A stretch of 20,661 bases of DNA from Synura sp. LO234KE (Eukaryota; Sar; Synurophyceae; Synurales; Mallomonadaceae): NCBI GenBank assembly GCA_015143735.1, contig VKHC01000029.1:5248-25908 (forward strand), given 5' to 3'. A program made the translations under genes and the position numbers. Shown here one piece after another: positions 1-20,661 of this stretch (positions are counted from its first letter, which is position 1; each line of letters opens with the position of its first letter). The notes beneath the pieces were generated by a model that worked only from the letters and a program-made list of their open reading frames with translations, was not told the origin of the DNA and did no database searches.

Positions 1-24
1 TGTCACATAATATGTCACATAATA
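1..24. repeat. two tandem copies of a 12-bp unit at the left edge
   Basis: The window opens with two identical copies of tgtcacataata. The array may extend to the left of the window. It lies beyond the last exon seen for the minus-strand chromatin gene, so it is either intronic or 3' to it. Confidence 0.7.
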
Positions 25-3000
25 AAATGGAAAAAAAGGAAATATCGTCTCGGAATCAGCTCTGCATAGAGGCTCCTCCTTACCTTGTCAAGCAGTACAT
101 CGTGCTCCTGACGAATGCACTTGAATCCGACCGGAAATATTTGTGTCTGACACATACCACATATAATTAGGTTGGAACGAATCCTCTTGCAACAATTATT
201 GAAGACATGACGCCTTAGCATTGCATAGAAAATCATGATCCGCCTCTTTAGAATTACAAGTTTTCATGTAAGAAATAAGGATGACGATGAAACGGTCTGC
301 CGCGAAGGGCAATAAAGCCAGGGTAACTATATGACGCTTCGTTAGGTCGGGGGCCACGGAGGCGCCAGTGCGGTAGTGTTGCTCACCGAGGTGTGAAAGC
401 CTTGTTGCACAGAGACTTTGCCCCAGTTTAGTACAGTTGTGTTCCTGTAGCAGACGCAATTGGCAAGCACACATTCAATGTTTTCCCTATCAACGACCGA
501 AAATTGACCATTTTTATACACACTATGATGTTAGGGCGACAGGAACAGTACTCAATGGTGGGTGTTCTATGCGGTGCGGTGGCACGGCGGGGTTAATGAC
601 AGAATGAAACGACAGCAAACCAGTCCTTCAAGATACTTTCACCGGCTCCCGTCCGATCCCACAGATTCAAAGTAGGCAGACAACACCTACCCGTAGGCGA
701 AGTGCAGCTCCGGGCCCGCCGAGCCTGAGCCCTCGTCCTCCACCCAATTCTCTCCTCTACCGCTCGGCCTCCCCGCCCCATCCTCCACCTTGGCTTCTGC
801 CTCCGACATATCTCCTATATTTGAGATCTGCGACTCAAAAGACTGCGAGCGACCTCGTGGATCTTTGTCGCGGTTATCACCGCTGCCAATCAGTCCAGTA
901 CGCGCCTCCGTGGTTGGGCCGCCATACGCCACCACCCTATCCCCATCTTCCCCTAACAAAGGCTTACGGGCGTAAGCGAGAGCCTTTTCAAGAGAGGCGA
1001 ATACATTCTCCCCGACCACACCGACGGCCACGTCCACACCCGGAGCGAGGTAATGAGTGCGCAAAGCAGTATGACCGGACACGGTATCCACAGTAGCCTC
1101 CTCGCCCGCGACACCAGGACCCGCGCCGTCGCTTTGGATGACGCATTTCGTCCAACCTCGCGTAGCCAGATACGACCAGCGCTCATCCGGTGACCCACCG
1201 ACAACCTCAGCCCCTCCATCAACTCTGCTATCCTCCACCATTGTACTCGGGGTCCACTCCAGTGTCTGCGGAGTGTCCGAAAGCGTTCCATCAGTGTGCG
1301 CTTCCTGCGATGTGTGACTAGTAGATGTGGGATTCGAATTACTCTCAGCGGGAGATCCATCTAAGCACTGAGACGCAGGCTGTGGAGACGAGTCTTGATT
1401 CAGGTTTGCCACGGAGCTCTCGAGCGAGTCCTCTGTACGGAGTGAAGGCCGCAAGGTAGGAGTAAAACAACGGACATAAAAGGCAGTAAGAATTGAAATG
1501 TCAGGCATGCTATAACACCAGCCCGATCTAGACGGACAGCGCTTTCACTGACAACTGGTGTCATCAGTCGATTGGAGCTCTAGTAGAAGCTCTTCTCCCC
1601 ATACACTGTCCTTCCTTTCTCCCTCTCCATGAGACATCCCCACAGTCAGTCCGCAGTACCTGAAGTGTCCGACGTGTCCGCGGGTTTAGACGACAGAGCC
1701 TGCTGCTCTTGGCCTCCTCGAACTGTCCTCCGAATGAATCGAATGGTATCGTCCGGATAGGAGCGCAGTTCACCGCCACGAATATCTCCTACACGGTTTA
1801 TATAGAGCCGAGTGGGCGAGCGGCCAGTGATACAGGCAGAGGTGGATCAGATATGATAGCGAGTAGAGCCTACGCATTCAACTCGGTCACGGACATGGTC
1901 ATGGTCACAGATGCGTTAACTGAAACGATATTAGTAAGTTTTTGCAATCGTCATGAGTGAAGTTATGCACAATGCCAAACGGGTACAAATAGAGCAGTGA
2001 GAGAGCCGATAGGGTACTATCTACCGAACTGCCGTGAACTGTGAGCAGTACGGCCGATGAAAGTGCACCGGCCTTCGACTAATAGAAAGTCGCAGTCAGA
2101 TATGTTCTTACCGTGAACAGCGAGTACGTGTGTGGCCAAGTGCTTTTCCCTAATTTCTTTGGATATGTTGTGCAATTGTTTCCTGTAATTTAATTTTGCC
2201 TTATTAATACGTATATTAATGCTAATCATCTTATAACTACACATGACAATTAATCGTATCAAGTAATGAGTGTATGTTTACGAGGTAGGTTGGGTTCTCT
2301 TACGTGGAAAGCAATTGTTGTTGACTGGTGAAAATCTCACCTTGTCATTCCGTTGTAGTTCCTTACAAATGGGAAAAGGTTTAACATCGTCGCTACTTCT
2401 ACCCTATATTAAGTTTTAAAGCGTTTATGCTGTAATTGTGTTTGATTACGAAATTTTGCTACCTGGATTTCATTTTCTTCTGTTTCGGACTCACGTACAC
2501 CACGTCCAGGATGGATAGTGGTCTCCTTATTACCTTTAGAACATTCATAATTAATATAGAGAGCACAAAATTGTTTGCAAATATGAGAAGTACCTGTGTC
2601 CTCCATCCTCTTAGAAGGTCCTGGTTACCTCCACTTTTAACAATATAATCCACTAGTTTATCATGGAAAAATATTCGTATGGGCTCTAATGATGAATCAT
2701 CTTATTTTGAAAGTCATCGATATGAGTTGCAAAGAGTTTACAGCAATCGATTTACGTTATAGGAATCAAAACGGGTGAAAAATCACAGAATTAAAATAAT
2801 TAACACCTGTAAAGTTGATGTGGTCATTTGACTCATCTCCAGAAAGATCATTTCCCTCATCATCAATTATATCAAAGTCTTCATAATTTCCTGATTTTTT
2901 CGGTGCTCGTGAAGATTGCCTTCTTCCTGCTTGAGCAGAGGAATCGGCTACATAGTCCTCGTCCGTAAAAGCTTCAAAAACAGTGCTGTCATTATTTTGA

Positions 3001-3119
3001 ACATGATCAATTTGGTCCTCCGTGGAGATTAGCGTCGGAACATCTAAGCTAGATTGATCATTCAACATAACGTCGCAAGAATCTAGAGAGTCGGCGTCCC
3101 CAGGATCATTGATCAACAT
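1..3119 (-). CDS. chromatin-type protein with MBD-like and FYRN-like domains (multi-exon, 3' end outside window)
   Basis: Not visible as one frame. Eight exons join with matching phases: 3119-2807, 2652-2594, 2533-2463, 2182-2112, 1788-1660, 1432-691, 444-387 and 146-84, giving 502 codons in the window. Residues 1-105 are acidic with a basic patch (GRRQSSRAPKKSGNYED). Residues about 115-150 read GWRTQVIRR..LDVVYVSPKQKKMKSR, matching the GW...R...DVYY.SP.GKK.RS pattern of TAM/MBD (methyl-CpG-binding) domains. Residues 173-300 form a Ser/Asp/Gln-rich linker. Residues 300-371 hold W..L...GW, then YLAPG, then VFASLEKALAYAR. From 463 on, WGKV....GFHTS joined to TQIFPVGFKCIR matches the FYRN half of FY-rich domains. 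The last exon either ends at donor AAG|GTAAGG (84/83) or reads on to a TGA near base 15. ATG 3119 is preceded in frame by TAA; an upstream coding exon is not excluded. Exons 2-3 and 6-8 are the firmest; the link through 2182-2112 and 1788-1660 rests on phase agreement. Likely nuclear. Arabidopsis MBD9 also combines MBD and FY-rich domains, from memory. Confidence 0.6.
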
Positions 3120-4255: not shown

Positions 4256-5840
4256 TTACCGCCCTCCATCCTCCTTCATTTTCAACTTCCTTGCAGCCAT
4301 CACCAAAAGTCGCGCCAGTGCGGGGTTGTTCTTGAGGTCCCGAGCGGTTATGCCTCCAACTGATTTGCGAGCCGATCCAACAGACTTCAATTCCCCCCGC
4401 CCTTCCGATCCCTCCCGTTGCGGCCGTATCGCACCGAATCCCGTGCTCTCTCCCGGGACTGGGAGTGACACAGACTTGGGCAACGGCACCTCACTGTCAC
4501 TGTCCCGTGACGAGCTCGTTGGGGTGTCACCCGCCGACTTCGAGGGTGGGGGCGGGGGCGACAAAGGAGGTGTTGGATCGTACTTACTGGCGGAGGTATT
4601 TAAACCCGCCATAGAAGAATGTGTGATCGGTAGGCCAATCGCCGCCATAGTCTAGCGTAGAAAATGCATTTCCCTCGTTACGGGACAAGACTATAATATC
4701 GGGCGTGTGGACGCAAGTCGACGGTTGACACGCACCTGGTAGAGTTTCACAGTCCTATTGAACACGTCGCTGTGCTCAGGGGCACGGGCGACGTGCGGCC
4801 CGACGTCATGAGCAAAGAAGTTAAAGCCCAAGATAACTCTTCTCTGGTCTGGCGGGAGGGCTGTGATTGGGGTCGATAGGTGCGGCAGTTCGCCGTCCAT
4901 TAGAATGAAGCGGTTTCCTTTGTATGGGATTTTTATCCAGTTCAAATTGGTGGTCAGATCGTATTCAAACGCTTCTCTGGACTGCAAAGAAGCTATAAAG
5001 TGATACGTTGAAGGAGGAACGTTAGTTGCAACAAGAATTGGTGAGGGTGGATGCAACAGAGTTAAGCTCAGATTTCTCATTCACATTTCTAGCATACCTT
5101 TGTAGCCAAAACGTTTGTAGTGTTCAAGTCCTTCTTTATTCACCATGAAGTCTCCACCAACCATCGCCTCTGTATTCGTCGCATGATAAGTTGCAGCATA
5201 GAGTGGAGGATGAATTATATTTGTCTCATATCTACAAAACAAGTATGTGTTTGATATATATCATAATTTGAGTTGCAAATTGATTCTGCCTGTACAGTTC
5301 AGCAAAGTCGATATGGTAGACCACTTCGTTCGTCCGTTGTGATGACAAACTCCATATCGCAACACCTTCGATCGGTAATATAAATAATATTGAAACGACA
5401 ATAAAAAGGTGAAGGAGACGAATTTTCGCTAACCGTGTATATTCATCTCATCCGCACGCAGAATATCCCATAGATCGCTACTAAGAATCTTTCGAAACAT
5501 ATACACACCTATCGCCCTTTCTTTATCGGAATCCCATAATCCCTCTGGACATATGTTATCGTTCTTTCCATCCGACATCAGAACGTAAATCCCTTGCAAT
5601 AAAGGATTTTATCCCTACTGATAAAATGATATTAAATTATAAAGCTCTTGTCCTACCCCAGGGTGCCGATCTAGCAACACTAAATTCGTATATCCGATTT
5701 TCCCAAGTCGAATCGACAAAATTATCGCAAGTTTCCACAAACGATGAATATGTTTTGTTCTCATAAATAGCCATGCGAGTCTGAACTGGAGTAGAACCAG
5801 GCGTGTGACCATCATCCCAATTAATTATGTTTATATTCAT
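4256..5840 (-). CDS. 2-oxoglutarate/Fe(II) dioxygenase-like protein with Pro/Ser-rich tail, six exons
   Basis: Exons 5840-5657, 5592-5434, 5365-5290 (or -5296), 5231-5098, 4992-4736 and 4651-4256 join in phase into about 400 residues. Introns are about 58-105 bases; the fourth has a CTAAC branch sequence 25-35 bases before its acceptor. Catalytic signature: H132-x-D134 in EVVYHID, distal His222 in GELPH, then a basic RR (235-236) before VILGFNFF, which is the HxD...H...R order of the double-stranded beta-helix dioxygenases. Family members bind Fe(II) with the two His and the Asp and 2-oxoglutarate with the Arg; most hydroxylate proteins or small molecules. The substrate here is unknown. Exon 6 adds 131 residues rich in Pro, Ser and charge (PPLSPPPPPSKS) without a recognised domain. 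ATG 5840 is the first Met in frame, but the frame stays open for a few codons upstream, so an extra 5' exon is possible. No clear signal peptide is seen. The second donor (GTTAGC at 5433) is weak. Confidence 0.7.
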
Positions 5841-10297: not shown

Positions 10298-10839
10298 TTG
10301 GTGCTAAGGCTCCTCTCGTCGACACAGTGGCAGCAATTGACACACTTCTGAACGACAGCTGTAGTCGAGATTTGAAACTATTGAAAGACGGGAGAACAGA
10401 TGAAACTCTTGTAGTTAATAGCAGAGTCGCTTCTGCAACCGATCCGACCGGTCTACCGCGGTATTTCCAGTAAAAACTCAAGCCTTGCATGGCAAGGTTC
10501 TAGTTTAATATTCGACACGGGTTTTCCGTCGCTGTTGTCAGTTTTTCTTGTGGCGTCTTTACCTAACTAAACTATCTACATAAGATTTTTGAAAAGAGCA
10601 GCATATACGCGAATAAAATTGCAGGTCAGAATTTCCCCGTGGAAAAAGTGATGCAGTTGATCGTTCGTTTCGTTTATCTAGTGAATTTCAGAGATATCAG
10701 ATGTAGGAGAAGTATAAGGGTCTTTTATGGACATGCCAACGTTCTAGCGGCAATTCAATCTCAAAGGAGAAACTTCTCCCAAGTATTGGTGAGGGAGGGC
10801 GCGTACAACCAACTACTCTTCGTTCTTAAAACTAATTAA
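10298..10839 (+). CDS. possible SpoU/TrmH-type RNA 2'-O-methyltransferase N-terminal exons (partial)
   Basis: The frame from 10692 reads RSIRVFYGHANVLAAIQS followed by QRRNFSQVLVREG. This fits the start of the SpoU substrate-binding domain (pattern: iyG.naVl.Al.s.rr.i..vlv.eg). Enzymes of this family methylate the 2'-O of ribose in rRNA or tRNA. Two starts are possible. One is ATG 10651, which gives a basic N-terminus like a mitochondrial presequence (MQLIVRFVYLVNFRDIRCRR). The other is a phase-matched splice from an upstream exon at 10298-10469 (AKAPLVDTVAAIDTLLNDS...) to acceptor AATTTCAG at 10691. Downstream the frame either stops at 10839 or splices at TTG|GTGAGG (10788/10789). An ACTAATTAAC branch-like sequence sits just after it. 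I could not find the knotted catalytic domain downstream, so this may be a fragment or pseudogene. Confidence 0.33.
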
Positions 10840-14143: not shown

Positions 14144-16608
14144 TTACCGCTCCTTCCCCCCTCGCACCATGGTGACTAACGGCACCAAGTCCGACCCGTG
14201 AGTTCTCCACGCGGTGAGCAAATAGACACAGAAGCTGAAGACGCCCGCACACAAGTGCACCAGCGCCGTGGCGGCGAGGGGGCTGCCCCACTCCACCCTG
14301 TCCGAGCACTCAGCCTCGCGTAGAGTCTGCTGCTCCAAAGCTGAGCGAGGATGCGGCTGGGCCGGAGGATAGAGGGTCCTCTCCGAGCAGCTTTGGGTCC
14401 GGGCGGTCAGATGAGCGTCCAGTTGGTTAGCAAAGAGCGAGGATGTGGAGAAGGTCAGCAGTAGGCCCAAGGACAGTGCGAGCCAGACTCGACGGTGGGG
14501 GACCACTCTGGTGAGCGAAGCAGCAGCAGGTCCGGACGGTACCACATACGCAGGACTGGATGACGAGGACACGGGATCCAACGAGACTTGTGACCCACAG
14601 TCCTCGCCCTCTCCGCTACGGACTCTCCCTCTCCTCCTTACGGCAGGCGAGGACCCGGGAACTGGTTCAGTCTCCTCTACTCCCTCCATCTCTGCAACTG
14701 AGACCAATACATCCGGATGCTCGTCCCCATCCTCAGTTTGATCGCGAGCAACCTGATTCTCCACCTCCGTCTCCCCATTCTGCCGCACAGAGTCTTCCGT
14801 CCCAGCCCCTGTCCATGTCCAAGTTGAAGTCTCCTCAGCCTCATCCTCACCAGTGGCCACGTCGTCCTCGTCCACGGAATCCCCCCGCAATCCTCCGGTA
14901 CCAACTCTCCCCCTTCTCGTACCCTGCACTACAACTTCAAGTGCACTCTGTAACAACGGCATATTCAACGTCGCCGCCGGGCGCGCTGTACAATTGTGTA
15001 TGTACCTCAAATTGAAAACCAGTCTGGTCACCATACTGAATGCGTTGGCCCAGACTAGTCCACTAGTGCCCATGTACAGCATGCACGGCCTGATCGTTGC
15101 CACAAACACCAAGGAGCTGAGGACCAGCCCTAGATTGAGCTGAGAGATGAAATAACGAGGAGGGTTTGTAGGCACAGGTGTTCCACTTTTGCCATTCACA
15201 TGGGCCCGCTCCTCCACACATTCACTGTTTCCGTTACTGCTGCTCGGAGATGTAGATATGACATAGGCCTCCGTTACGCCATTCAGACACATGACACCGA
15301 GATAGAAACAAAATGCTGCAAGCGTACGAACCATTTCTGGGGAGTACCACCGCGAGCCAAGAACATAATAACACAGTAGTCGGACATAATTGGGACCGAA
15401 TACCGGAAGTACTGCACTGAATAGAACGGCCAGCTTCAACAAGCCAGATATAAGGTTCTGTAGACCGTGATAATGCTCCCTAAGGTCCGCCAAGTGTTTA
15501 GAATGCTGGTGCCGTATACGCGATGAAAAATATTCGTATTTCGAATTAAGTTGGTTTATATGGTTTACTTGGACTTGCATACAATTCATACAGTTGGAAA
15601 AAGCCAAACGCGCACTTTCTTCTACGGGAAGGAAGAGTAGTCGAGCTGCTAGTGATCCATAATTCTGTGCTATCGCGTACAGACCTTGGTCATACAACGA
15701 ATAAAAGAAAGATAACACAATCTTATCTGCTTCGGTCAAAATAAATTTGATGATGGACGTGGATGTCGATGATAGCGCGCTACTTAGCGTCGATTCCCCG
15801 AACTGGTTTTTAAGGACATTCATTAATTTTATTACCGGTGATGTGTAATCGTTCCCATATATATCTTTATCACCACTATATTCGCCACGAGTAGGATTAG
15901 GAAGACTTATGAACTTCGGAAAATAATGCTTATAAGGTATCGGCTGTTTGTTTATAACCGCAACCGTCCGAATGTGATAAATCAATATGATCAGGTAGAC
16001 GAATCCATACGCTATTTGAGCATAAGCGAATCCATATATGCCATACTTATAGATACCTACCAATGTAAATGCAACAATCGACCTCACAAAAACCGCTCCA
16101 CTCTCAGCTCGGAGTCTAGGGCTAATTTGAATTACATTAGAAGAAATATTGTAAATTGGTTCCCCCAACAATTCCAGATAGGCAGCTACCGCATATAGCT
16201 GCATTAATTTTGGAAGCTGAGAGGCTTCGCTGCTGTAAGCAGATAAATAAACTGAGATACCAACAACTACTAACGTGAGCAGAAATGCTGGAATCCATGA
16301 AATATTGACAATTTGTTGAACTTCCAGAAAGCTGGTCAAGGGTGATCGCAAAGATGCTACGCGTATGCCTTCTCTGATTCATGAAATTTGATAAATCATG
16401 AATGGCAGTATTATTAAATTAAATACCTTGACAGAAAAAGAAAACACGAGCAAAGCAACTCTAACTGTATAGCAGCTAATCCGAAAGTTGATGGATCGGT
16501 ATATCTGATAAGTAAATTATTTAACACAAAAGAACATAACTTTTGGAACAAATTAATAAGAAAAATTCCAGATATCCCATTCAAAGCGCGAGATACATTT
16601 GATTTCAT
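14144..16608 (-). CDS. RFT1: RFT1-like endoplasmic reticulum membrane protein with large acidic insertion
   Basis: Two exons, 16608-16427 and 16373-14144, flank a 53-base intron and give 803 residues from ATG 16608. The family (about 540 residues in human) is a polytopic ER protein needed for dolichol-linked oligosaccharide supply in N-glycosylation; its flippase role is disputed. Family marks: LIRYTDPSTFGLAAIQLELL and the FLSREGIRVAS motif, which the intron splits; then LELLGEPIYN and SPRLRAESGAVFVRS; then EADKIVLSFF, QGLYAIAQNYGSLAARLLF and PVEESAR; then LCYYVLG. Many membrane helices are visible. Residues about 545-680 are a Glu/Asp/Gly/Ser-rich insertion with no counterpart in the usual protein. 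The last helices and a charged tail (MVRGGKER) follow. A Ser/Asn loop near residues 435-465 is also longer than usual. The insertion is GC-rich and open in the antisense frames, which explains several false plus-strand frames at 14445-15143. It is divergent from the secreted-protein gene. Confidence 0.9.
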
Positions 16609-16724: not shown

Positions 16725-19700
16725 ATGACTCTAATATACTACCGCATCTTACTTTTCCTTACAGAAATTATTTTTTTATGTCTATCTGGTTCCGTGTTGG
16801 ATATAACAAGCAATTTTGTCGATGACACAGGAGAATATTTACTAGCGGAATGGATGGAGTTAGGTTCAATAACAGTTCAATATAATACTTTTGTAAACAT
16901 CAAGACGAAGTTGCAAAAATTTAATCGACCTCATGTTTTCATAAGCATACCGAGAACCATAAAAGGACCCCACAATATTTTCTCCACCCCGAATTTTCGT
17001 ATAGCAAAGCTACATAAAGACAGTACAAGCGGCGCTTACATTTTCAACATCAAAGCCGTCTTACAGAACAGTTCTTGGTGCAATCAAACTTGGTCCACTC
17101 CACCAGGAAATGCGTACGTTGCGGTCACATATCTTATCGTCGAAGAGGGTCATTATGACCTCAACAATGCAGAATTTGATGCCATAAGTGAAGTTTTAGA
17201 CAATCTTTCTAATACAGGTTATATATTCAAATTTTCAAAGCCTTTTCGAAGGAACTCGATTGATTATGCAAACACAGCACTACCTTCACTGATCGCTCAA
17301 GCACAAACTCACAATAATCCTGGATACATAACATATCGAGCCGTATTAGCGGCTGCTACAATTGAAAGTGCTACATTAGTTGCCACCCTATATAATCGCG
17401 GATCATCCTCGCGCTCCCTAAAGACCACTGAACGAATATCCTTGTTTTCCTTTATATCGAATTTCGTGGGGTTGTGCGATAATGACGTGACTTTCGAGAC
17501 GTTTAAAACATCTTTACCTGTTACGATAAATCCGCTTTCCCCTTTTCAGTCATATCATACTTTTCAATACAAATATTATACCAGTCCGAGTCTATTCGGA
17601 ATGATTCAAACGGACGCTGAACAGGGTCTCAGTCTCACTATTGACGCCTATAACCGCTCTGTCCATGGAATGAACATACAACTCACAATCAATGAACTAG
17701 ATTTGAATTGTACTGAATCTAGCTCCTTGCTGTCCAAAGATGTGGACGGCAACAAAGAAGTGCTTGCCTTCTTTGTCATTGGCAAGTCTCATCAGAAGGT
17801 CAGAAGAGATGGGATCGCGGCGGGGAATCAACCGTCGCAAATATCGGCGATTTCGTGGAAAGATTCAGTTGTAACATCCACGTCTAATTCGTTTGTCAAA
17901 TCCAGTCGCTCGCTATCTTCAACTCCGGCGGGGTCGCTGTCGAGTACTTCAGTCAGTACGACTGCCCATGCCCCGGGGATGGCGACCGTCGCAGGGAAGT
18001 GTTTTATTAAATACAACACTGACGGGGATGACAGCTTCCACGATTCCATTCACAGTCCTGATAATCGATACGATCGCGACGATTGGAGTTGGAGTGACTG
18101 GTTGGAAGACGAGGACGACAATAAGCATGTGGCCTACACTCCCGACGGCGATTCCGTTCCAAGCTCTCTGCCCACGGCTTCCAATAGTTCAAGCGCAGTG
18201 ACTGGATATAAGAAGGATGAAGATAATAAGAACAGCGCCGACGATAAACAGAGAGAGGGGGACGGGACCAACGTCAATTTCGTTATGTTCAATCGAAACG
18301 GTTACAAGAATGACGGAGGGGCGTGGTCGAGCGGCCGCGGGGATGACGCTGCGGACAGTGGCGATCACAGGGATCGCTATGCGCGCGATGCCGACGACAT
18401 CGACGCCCTTCTGTTTCCGCGCGCTGTGCTTCGCAACAGCACCGCCAACACGAGCGACGTCTGTATAACGTGAGCGCCGTTTTTGTTTTTGTTAACGCGC
18501 TGCGGATGGGTGACACAGGAATACTAGTTCATTCAAATATGTGATTGAAATTGATTGATGTTATCTTAATATGCTCTACCATAGGTTCTGGTTAAGGGAC
18601 AGCTTTGGGGATGGGTGGGGGTCCGCCTCTTTCTATCTCTACGACAGAGCGTCGTACCACTTGAAGACCGCCCCAGACTGCACGGTTAACAACGGATCCA
18701 CCCACAAGACTGTGACCTACTGCTTTGATGTGAACGGTGATGGTGGGGTGGCCGTAACTGCCACTGTCTTCGGCTTTAACCCGCCGCACCCTTGGGAGGT
18801 GAGCGCGTCTGTTCGGAGGGGAGGGGAGGGAGCCCAAACCAGACAGTGGCATCTGACAGATGAGAAGCTCACTTGTCACTCACTGAGTCTTCTGCTCCTG
18901 TGTTACCTGCGCCGCTCGGCTGATTGGCTTCACAGATATCGTGGGAGGCACACGTGCACGCGGACGGGCGGGTTTTCTACGGAGGCCTGAATACGATCAT
19001 GACCTTCCAGGTCTACACCGTCACACCTACTCCCTACTTATCGTCGGCGGCCTTTCTGTCCTCAGCCAGTGATGGCCCCGCGGGCACCTCCCTTGGAAAC
19101 AGGAAGAGATATATGGTCAAGTTAAAACAGGCAGACGACCTGCTGCCGGGGCCAGGGGTAGACCGAGGCGAGGCGAGCGGGTGAGCGACAGGTTCTTATA
19201 ATGCTATTTCTGCGTATAATGGGGACCTATGTGCTCTAAACGAACAGAGTGGAACATTCTCACTGATATGCTTGATTTTATAACTTCACCACTGCCACAC
19301 TGCGGTATATTATTCTGTTCGACGTTTTGATGTCGAACCGATTTAGATTTTTCCACAGCTAGTAATATGATCCGTGGCAAAGAAAATCTTAATTTTTTAG
19401 TCAAAACGATCTTATTCAAAGATTTCCTTGGCGGATGTAAGTCGTCTTATGGTATCTAATTGTGTCATTTAGAAAGATTAAATAATAAAGGACGACCGCA
19501 TCGTTCGTGTTATTTACCTGCTTTTGTTAATTGACCTAGTAGCAGGACGACTTACTCTATACCTATATAACTGTCATGTCATTTTATTCAGGTGCACCAA
19601 TTACAATACGATTCCATATTCGGTTTCCAGTGACGGTTGCTCCATAAGATCGTCGTATGAGGGTGACCACTCAAATGGAAACAAGATATACGACGGAGGA

Positions 19701-20661
19701 CACTGGCTCGATGACCTTAAGAAACATTTGTATGATAAGGACGACGAAAGTGCAGAGAGCAGGGACGACCCAAGCGATGAGGAGAATGGACCGAAGAGTG
19801 GTGACGGTGGGGGGAACCAAGGTAGCGGGGAAGGTGTTGATGAAAGTAATGGTGAGGACAGCGGAGGCCGATCTCCGGTCGGGAGAGATTCAAGCGACGA
19901 AGTCGACGGAAGTTATTATTATTACACATATTATGGGAGGTCGGTTGAAAATCCACACCCTAATTCCGGTGAATCTGAGCCTGATGGCGACCACTACAGC
20001 TACTCACCGTCCTACGATAATGAAGATCTCGCCCCAAATGCCGGCAATTCTAATGCAGTAAACTCCCGTGGACAAGTCCAAGGTCCCGACACAGATGTTT
20101 ACCCGCATTATAGCAACCCCGGTACAGTGGGTAACAAACCAGATGTCCCGTGGCGTTCGAATAACGATCGCGCGTCCATACAGGGGTTTCACTCGGTTAA
20201 GACCGCTCCATTCCCAACATACTACTCGCCTCCTCCTCCTCCTGAATCGCATCCGACGTCAGATTCAGATGAACCAAATGCTGCGGCTAAGGAGGGGGCC
20301 CCCGAGAGGGTGGACCTAAAGCGCAAACCACCACTGCAGAGCACACAGTATTATTACAGTTACAATACGGGTACATACAATACGGACCCTCGCCATGAAC
20401 CAAATAAAATCGCTCCTCAACCAACGAGCTCTGTGGACCCCTTGTCTCCAGTAAGCTCGAGTGGTGGAGGTCCTCCGTCTGGGGATGTAGAGGCCCCCTT
20501 GTCTTCAGTGGGCTCGAGTGGTGGAGGTCCTCCGTCTGGGGATGTAGAGGCCCCCTTGTCTTCTGTGGGCTCGAGTGGTGGTCCTCCGTCTGGGGATGTA
20601 GAGGCCCCCTTGTCTTCAGTGGGCTCGAGTGGTGGAGGTCCTCCGTCTGGGGATGTAGAGG
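16725..20661 (+). CDS. secreted surface or matrix protein with DSFGDGW domain and C-terminal tandem repeats (3' end outside window)
   Basis: Four exons in phase: 16725-18469, 18585-18798, 18936-19180 and 19592-20661, giving 1091 residues so far. Donors are ACGTGAGC, GAGGTGAGC and CGGGTGAGC; acceptors are ATAG, CACAG and TTCAG. Residues 1-24 are a signal peptide (YYRILLFLTEIIFLCLSG). Residues 25-360 are a beta-rich-looking ectodomain with many N-x-S/T sites and no family I know. Residues 380-580 are Ser/Asp/Asn-rich. Exons 2-3 hold FWLRDSFGDGWGSASFYLYD (583-602), then a Cys pair, PHPWEISWEA and FYGGLNTIMTF. This is the DSFGDGW-type extracellular domain common in stramenopile and bacterial secreted proteins. 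Exon 4 starts with a Cys segment, then acidic stretches, Tyr-rich runs (GSYYYYTYYG, QYYYSY), TYYSPPPPPES, and 19-residue repeats. The Tyr/Pro runs recall extensin-type wall proteins. Role inferred as cell-surface or matrix structure. No membrane anchor is seen, but the C-terminus is missing. Confidence 0.8.
20436..20661 (+). repeat. in-frame 57-bp tandem repeat array (continues past right edge)
   Basis: Four units in the coding frame: 20436-20492 (57 bases), 20493-20549 (57), 20550-20603 (54, one GGA codon lost) and 20604-20660 (57), with the first base of a fifth. The unit encodes APLSSVGSSGGGPPSGDVE. Units 2-4 are almost identical in DNA; unit 1 is diverged (DPLSPVSSS), as expected at the edge of an array that expands by unequal exchange or slippage. 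The array is Ser/Gly/Pro-rich and likely extended and length-variable. Confidence 0.95.

Follow-up and report, generated by a model that had tools for sequence, protein, structure and literature searches.

In Arabidopsis, MBD9 (At3g01460) carries an MBD, a bromodomain, two PHDs, FYRN, FYRC, DDT and WSD (PMC10451976), and it is described as a partner of the SWR1 and ISWI complexes (PMC6659704). The TAM domain of BAZ2A has a loop that is much shorter than in MBDs and does not prefer methylated DNA (PMC4446428), and methylated DNA is likewise reported not to be preferred by BAZ2B (PMC10783490). In this work we analysed a stretch of 20,661 nucleotides of contig VKHC01000029.1 from Synura sp. LO234KE (assembly GCA_015143735.1, positions 5,248 to 25,908 of the forward strand), called the window throughout. 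Its first 3119 bases hold, on the minus strand, the exons of a gene that joins an MBD-like domain to a FYRN domain. In our judgement, these exons are probably the 5' portion of an algal gene whose product is a nucleosome-remodeller subunit of the MBD9/BAZ2 type. The domain combination is already known from MBD9; the window adds a probable member of that kind in an alga. Searches of the open-licence literature listed no description of MBD-FYRN proteins from algae or other protists, and the word MBD is absent from the main text of a study of microalgal DNA methyltransferases (PMC9998398).

Between 3119 and 84, read along the minus strand, a chain of nine exons joins in phase into a stop-free model of 538 residues. 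GT...AG is present at every intron of the joined model, the phases all agree, and the ATG at 3119 is immediately preceded by an in-frame TAA. The sequence-only reading of this DNA had proposed an eight-exon gene. Its exons joined in phase hold, but the count may be eight or nine, as the exon at 1788-1660 was left undecided by homology (161 bits with it, 163 bits without it); the 8-exon reading contains a 679-base intron (2111-1433). Both joins that the same reading had singled out were confirmed, each with GT...AG and agreeing phases: GWRTQ to VIRRP, from exon 2 (2685-2594) to exon 3 (2533-2463), and GFHTS to TQIFPVGF, from 444-387 to 146-84. A good donor (GTAAGG) closes the last exon, indicating that the gene continues leftwards past the window, where the contig as analysed reads N over 5247 bases. 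Judged from the sequence, this is a real, intron-rich spliced gene, of which only the 5' part lies in the window. Its predicted features are:

2807..3119, minus strand: exon 1, with the ATG start at 3119 and an acidic N-terminus including RRQSSRAPKK.
2594..2685, minus strand: exon 2, with the helix FFHDKLVDYI and the beginning of the MBD (LLRGWRTQ).
2463..2533, minus strand: exon 3, the core of the MBD, VIRRPLSILDVVYVSPKQKKMKS.
2341..2398, minus strand: exon 4, the closing part of the MBD, RSSDDVKPFPICKELQRNDK.
2112..2199, minus strand: exon 5, a conserved helix, KQLHNISKEIREKHLATHVL, with the homolog counterpart QLHEISLETREKLLIGQQL.
1660..1788, minus strand: possible exon 6, DIRGGELRSYPDDTIRFIRR..., whose inclusion and skipping are both compatible with the phases.
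691..1432, minus strand: large exon, with a Ser/Thr/acidic low-complexity stretch, the GW segment and then ...LHFAYG, the start of FYRN.
939..1193, minus strand: GW segment, WSYLATRGW...HYLAPG...FASLEKALAYARK.
387..444, minus strand: FYRN exon a, NTTVLNWGKVSVQQGFHTS, its acceptor backed by homology.
84..146, minus strand: FYRN exon b, TQIFPVGFKCIRQEHDVLLDK, with the donor GTAAGG next to it.

The first exon on the FYRN side was placed at 444 because most homologs read FAxGN-TxLxWG, matched in the window by FAYG-NTTVLNWG; the end of the large exon corresponds to the FAYG of the homologs. An acceptor at 522 was rejected, since the homologs favour 444 (161 vs. 146 bits against the profile of the homolog family). 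A splice chain taking exon 4 to 2304 and exon 5 from 2182 was also rejected, as the later frame was broken. The scoring of the 198-residue N-terminus, the search for a second copy and the homolog search with the FYRN region used a 564-residue model with the acceptor at 522, and the FYRN pieces in the piecewise Pfam comparison carry the extra residues of that model.

The joins were then compared with their unjoined parts. In Pfam (cut-offs of 21 bits for MBD, PF01429, and 24 bits for FYRN, PF05964), the joined 74-residue MBD piece scored 23.5 bits and the N-terminal 198 residues 21.2 bits; before joining, the scores were 14.0 bits for exons 3 and 4 and 13.7 bits for the frame that runs unspliced through exons 2-3, and exon 2 had no match. 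FYRN scored 31.8 bits in the joined 75-residue piece and 30.4 bits in the whole model (residues 495-529), while before joining the last-exon piece reached 13.8 bits and the preceding piece had no match. Neither of two reversed control pieces matched MBD or FYRN. The family profile, built from 20 homologs with the window left out, gave 161 bits for the joined model. Retention of single introns lowered this to 130.7 to 150.6 bits for the four introns that keep the frame. Four further introns shift the frame when retained: three of them gave 45.5, 67.4 and 68.7 bits, and no score is listed for intron 1. The best single exon was FYRN exon b (84..146; 43.9 bits), and neither the reversed model nor any of 200 shuffled proteins appeared among the family-profile rows above 8 bits. 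Six-frame pieces of the 3119 bases scored 44.0, 26.8, 22.8, 19.4 and 11.8 bits against the same profile, compared to 4.8 bits for the best of 200 first-order Markov resamples and 2.0 bits elsewhere in the window. BLASTP against the homolog P0002 aligned residues 68-208 as one stretch spanning exons 1-5 (E 3e-9), and residues 494-538, encoded by the three FYRN-bearing exons, with 67% identity. A codon-use score, for which three other frames in the window served as the training set, ranked the used frame best of three in eight of the nine exons. The used frame scored +34.2 in exon 1 (the others -34.9 and -56.4) and +55.3 in the large exon (the others -51.8 and -68.0), and the best frame of possible exon 6 scored +2.2.

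Two of the 20 homologs were found through the FYRN region and 19 (one shared) through a three-row alignment, in a search that scored the 7997 candidates sharing most words. All of them are predicted proteins of up to 1176 residues, many of which may be incomplete; one is labelled EukProt. The blocks of the window occur in identical order within these single predicted proteins, and 18 homologs align over at least part of both the MBD and FYRN regions. FYRN is above its cut-off in 19 of the 20. MBD is above it in five and listed below it in three more, DDT is above it in two and below it in eight, and FYRC was matched in ten, always below its cut-off. A bromodomain was found in three homologs, all among the five longest, and a PHD in one; P0011 and P0013, both longer than 1000 residues, had no bromodomain match. 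Matches to MBD, FYRN and DDT occur together in P0001, P0003 and P0013. The FYRN part, represented by a profile of nine of the 20 homologs, aligned to TBRG1 (PDB 2wzo, E 0.028). In a tree of 19 of the 21 rows (P0014 and P0018 were left out as too short), the row nearest to the window was P0013 (pair support 86/87). MBD and FYRN meet in one protein in the window model, with the whole-model MBD below its cut-off, and the chromatin-type protein with MBD-like and FYRN domains suggested by the sequence-only reading is supported by the joined Pfam pieces and by the order shared with the homologs.

The MBD-like region is predicted to adopt the MBD fold at the family level. The profile for this domain included 15 of the 18 rows with more than 50 residues there, the window among them, and a PDB search with it retrieved plant MBD6/MBD5, MBD3, MBD2 and MeCP2 (best E 3e-7). 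The AlphaFold2 model of homolog P0001 had a mean pLDDT of 58.6, with values of 77-93 in the ten-residue blocks of the MBD and 56 in the loop. In Foldseek, every match to this predicted fold from rank 1 to rank 29 was an MBD structure (best E 0.0098, probability 1.00), with no match at E<=0.001. The contact positions for methyl-CpG are taken here to correspond to MeCP2 R111, D121, Y123 and R133. Of the 17 homolog rows that have a residue at the first contact Arg position, 13 keep the Arg; the second position is Arg in 16 of 18 homologs and Lys in two, with both Arg kept in P0007, for example; the Asp is present in 15 of 18 and the loop Gly in all 18; the Tyr/Phe position is Tyr in two of 18 and Phe in seven. 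The window has Arg, Lys, Asp and Val, respectively, for the two Arg, the Asp and the Tyr/Phe residue, and a four-residue loop deletion removes the Gly that is invariant in the homologs. The set associated with methyl-CpG reading (two contact Arg, an aromatic residue and a full L1 loop) is incomplete in the window. By analogy with the TAM domains of BAZ2A and BAZ2B, the window domain is most likely an MBD-like domain that does not read methyl-CpG. Lys for the second methyl-CpG Arg was also observed in P0010 and P0013 (two of 18), the latter with its loop kept; the Arg-to-Lys change may accordingly predate the lineage of the window or be repeated.

The linker from the conserved helix to FYRN is 288 residues long in the window, or 245 without the optional exon, compared to 28-80 residues in the 18 covering homologs. 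Most of 1432-691 has no counterpart in the homologs. The GW segment had no Pfam match at E<=1, its model from the lone sequence had a pLDDT of 43.9, and its hhalign probability against the family MBD was 0.2. We expect this insert of roughly 200 residues to be a linker that is specific to the lineage and includes a small folded module. A similar W..GW..YxxPG..F.S pattern presumably exists in oomycete proteins.

The sequence-only reading saw in this protein a reader of DNA methylation linked to histone regulation. A true methyl-CpG reader of this kind is unlikely. The fold family is the correct one (PDB profile search and Foldseek with P0001), the window keeps the Asp and one of the two contact Arg, and the homologs mostly keep both (13/17 and 16/18). 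However, the window lacks four loop residues, the invariant Gly among them, and carries Lys at a position that is Arg in 16 of 18 homologs and Val at one that is Tyr or Phe in nine of 18; this part of the earlier reading is not supported. A search of the assembly (8.1 Mb, 549 contigs) for a DNA methyltransferase (PF00145) gave no match, a weak negative, as the assembly may be incomplete and the search was made exon by exon. A histone enzyme of the MLL/KMT2 or JmjC type, with FYRN in the window and the catalytic domain to its left, would account for the FYRN domain, and MLL1 does carry FYRN and FYRC (PMC11354804). Nevertheless, we consider it improbable: SET and JmjC were not matched at E<=1 in any of the 20 homologs, though many may be incomplete, while DDT was matched in ten and a bromodomain in three. 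Remodeller subunits are nearer to this protein than the MLL and JmjC enzymes named in the sequence-only reading.

The worn MBD and the insert could also mark a decaying copy. The MBD does depart from the family, and the end branch of the window is 0.97 vs. a median of 0.41 (two homologs have longer branches, and the program flagged none as long). Against a pseudogene, 538 residues are read without a stop or frameshift, the FYRN region retains its identity with P0002, codon use supports the used frame in nearly all exons (8/9), and no second copy was found in the assembly, where all nine matches at E<=1 fall within this gene; we regard decay as very improbable. Slightly less credible again is an erroneous fusion of two adjacent genes, one with the MBD and one with FYRN. 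The 679-base intron of the 8-exon reading and the region 1432-691, mostly unlike the homologs, would fit such a boundary, but eight homologs have MBD and FYRN matches in the same order within a single predicted protein, 18 align into both regions, the phases agree, and the large exon itself ends in FAYG, the start of FYRN.

The preferred reading, a remodeller subunit of the MBD9/BAZ2 type, would give a protein with the order MBD-like domain, conserved helix and FYRN, followed beyond the window, by homology, by FYRC and DDT, with a bromodomain and PHD further downstream as in some longer relatives. The DDT region would hold an ISWI-class ATPase, the bromodomain and PHD would read histone tails, and FYRN-FYRC would form a folded protein-binding platform. 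The MBD-like domain would add contacts with nucleic acid or protein, without a preference for methyl-CpG. The product would most likely be a subunit that targets a remodeller of the ISWI/SWR1 type. For this gene we infer everything past FYRN, which remodeller its product joins, and that the preference for methyl-CpG has been lost.

Several observations weigh against this reading or the gene model behind it. The MBD scores 19.5 bits in the whole 538-residue model, below the cut-off of 21, so that the profile search of the spliced product upheld FYRN in full and the MBD in the joined pieces but not in the whole model. Short exons give little codon signal: exon 3 favours another frame (1.2 vs. 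0.5), exon 9 scores -0.9 with a lead of only 0.1 over the other frames, and exon 5 is level with an antisense frame. The window ends at FYRN, and the FYRC, DDT, bromodomain and PHD ascribed to this gene come from the homologs. Among these, no single protein has the complete domain set, and the order MBD-helix-FYRN-FYRC-like-DDT-bromodomain-PHD is a composite of several; most DDT and all FYRC matches are under the curated cut-offs. P0015, P0016 and P0017 have FYRN, DDT and bromodomain matches and no listed MBD match (P0015 and P0016 align across the MBD region, P0017 in its second half only). WHIM/WSD was not matched at E<=1 in any of the 20 homologs, many of which are perhaps incomplete. DDT and SLIDE (ISWI) were not matched in the 8.1 Mb assembly in an exon-by-exon search in which the controls gave nothing either. 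Finally, a review states that the MBD of MBD9 binds neither methylated nor unmethylated DNA (PMC10451976), in which case no nucleic-acid role would remain for the domain; another paper contradicts this and names unmethylated DNA as the presumed ligand of MBD9 (PMC6695207).

Beyond this gene, we tentatively raise the possibility that the MBD-FYRN-FYRC-DDT-bromodomain-PHD subunit is an old eukaryotic remodeller subunit, kept in fucoxanthin algae as well as in plants, and that in one lineage its MBD changed from a methyl-CpG reader into a TAM-like binder of nucleic acid, through loss of the L1 loop and the Arg-to-Lys change, while a new GW module was inserted between MBD and FYRN. If true, the series from homologs with both Arg to the window with one would be a natural one for timing the loss of methylation reading. 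The homologs mostly keep both Arg and the window copy does not, raising the question of whether remodeller-linked algal MBDs read DNA methylation. Reading the raw sequence recovered an 8- or 9-exon gene in which most exons are too short to show as frames.

Other features were observed in the window and the assembly. Contig C30 carries a light-harvesting gene (22512-22940) with the fucoxanthin-chlorophyll protein FCPI-12 as best PDB match (6ly5, E 4.6e-55), suggesting a fucoxanthin-type alga if C30 and C29 come from one organism; the algal origin given in the earlier reading agrees with this antenna gene. Elsewhere in the window are:

4691-5080, minus strand: a frame ending GNRFILMDGELPHLSTPI...RVILGFNFF, by eye the end of a 2-oxoglutarate dioxygenase, with no Pfam support.
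10567-10839, plus strand: a weak match to the SpoU RNA methyltransferase substrate-binding domain (13.5 bits vs. a cut-off of 22.8), by eye a candidate exon of an rRNA 2'-O-methyltransferase.
14144-16378, minus strand: an RFT1-type gene in a single long frame (PF04506, 214 bits).
19482-20660, plus strand: a long, acidic frame rich in Tyr/Ser.
20438-20661, within that frame: a 57-base tandem repeat, four copies, encoding SSVGSSGGGPPSGDVEAPL.

Compared to known systems, the family shares with MBD2, MBD3, MeCP2 and plant MBD5-6 the fold and the core motif GW...DVfYxSPxxKKfRSR, while the window copy differs in its loop deletion, Lys for Arg and Val for Tyr/Phe. The FYRN part aligns to the FYRN-FYRC domain of TBRG1 (2wzo), a match confined to FYRN; TBRG1 is not known to have an MBD. 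BAZ2A/TIP5 and BAZ2B (NoRC type) resemble the proposed protein as remodeller subunits with PHD, bromodomain and a TAM/MBD indifferent to methylation, with a short L1 loop in BAZ2A (PMC4446428, PMC10783490); in contrast, no FYRN is named for them in these sources, and the BAZ2A TAM has RNA-binding C-terminal extensions. Arabidopsis MBD9, compared by description only, is alike in combining MBD, FYRN and FYRC, in the DDT, bromodomain and PHD present in some homologs, and in an MBD without the methyl-CpG residues (PMC10451976, PMC6659704). It differs in having two PHDs and a WSD, where WSD was unmatched and PHD was found in one of the 20 homologs, and the window protein differs from it in the GW/low-complexity insert before FYRN.

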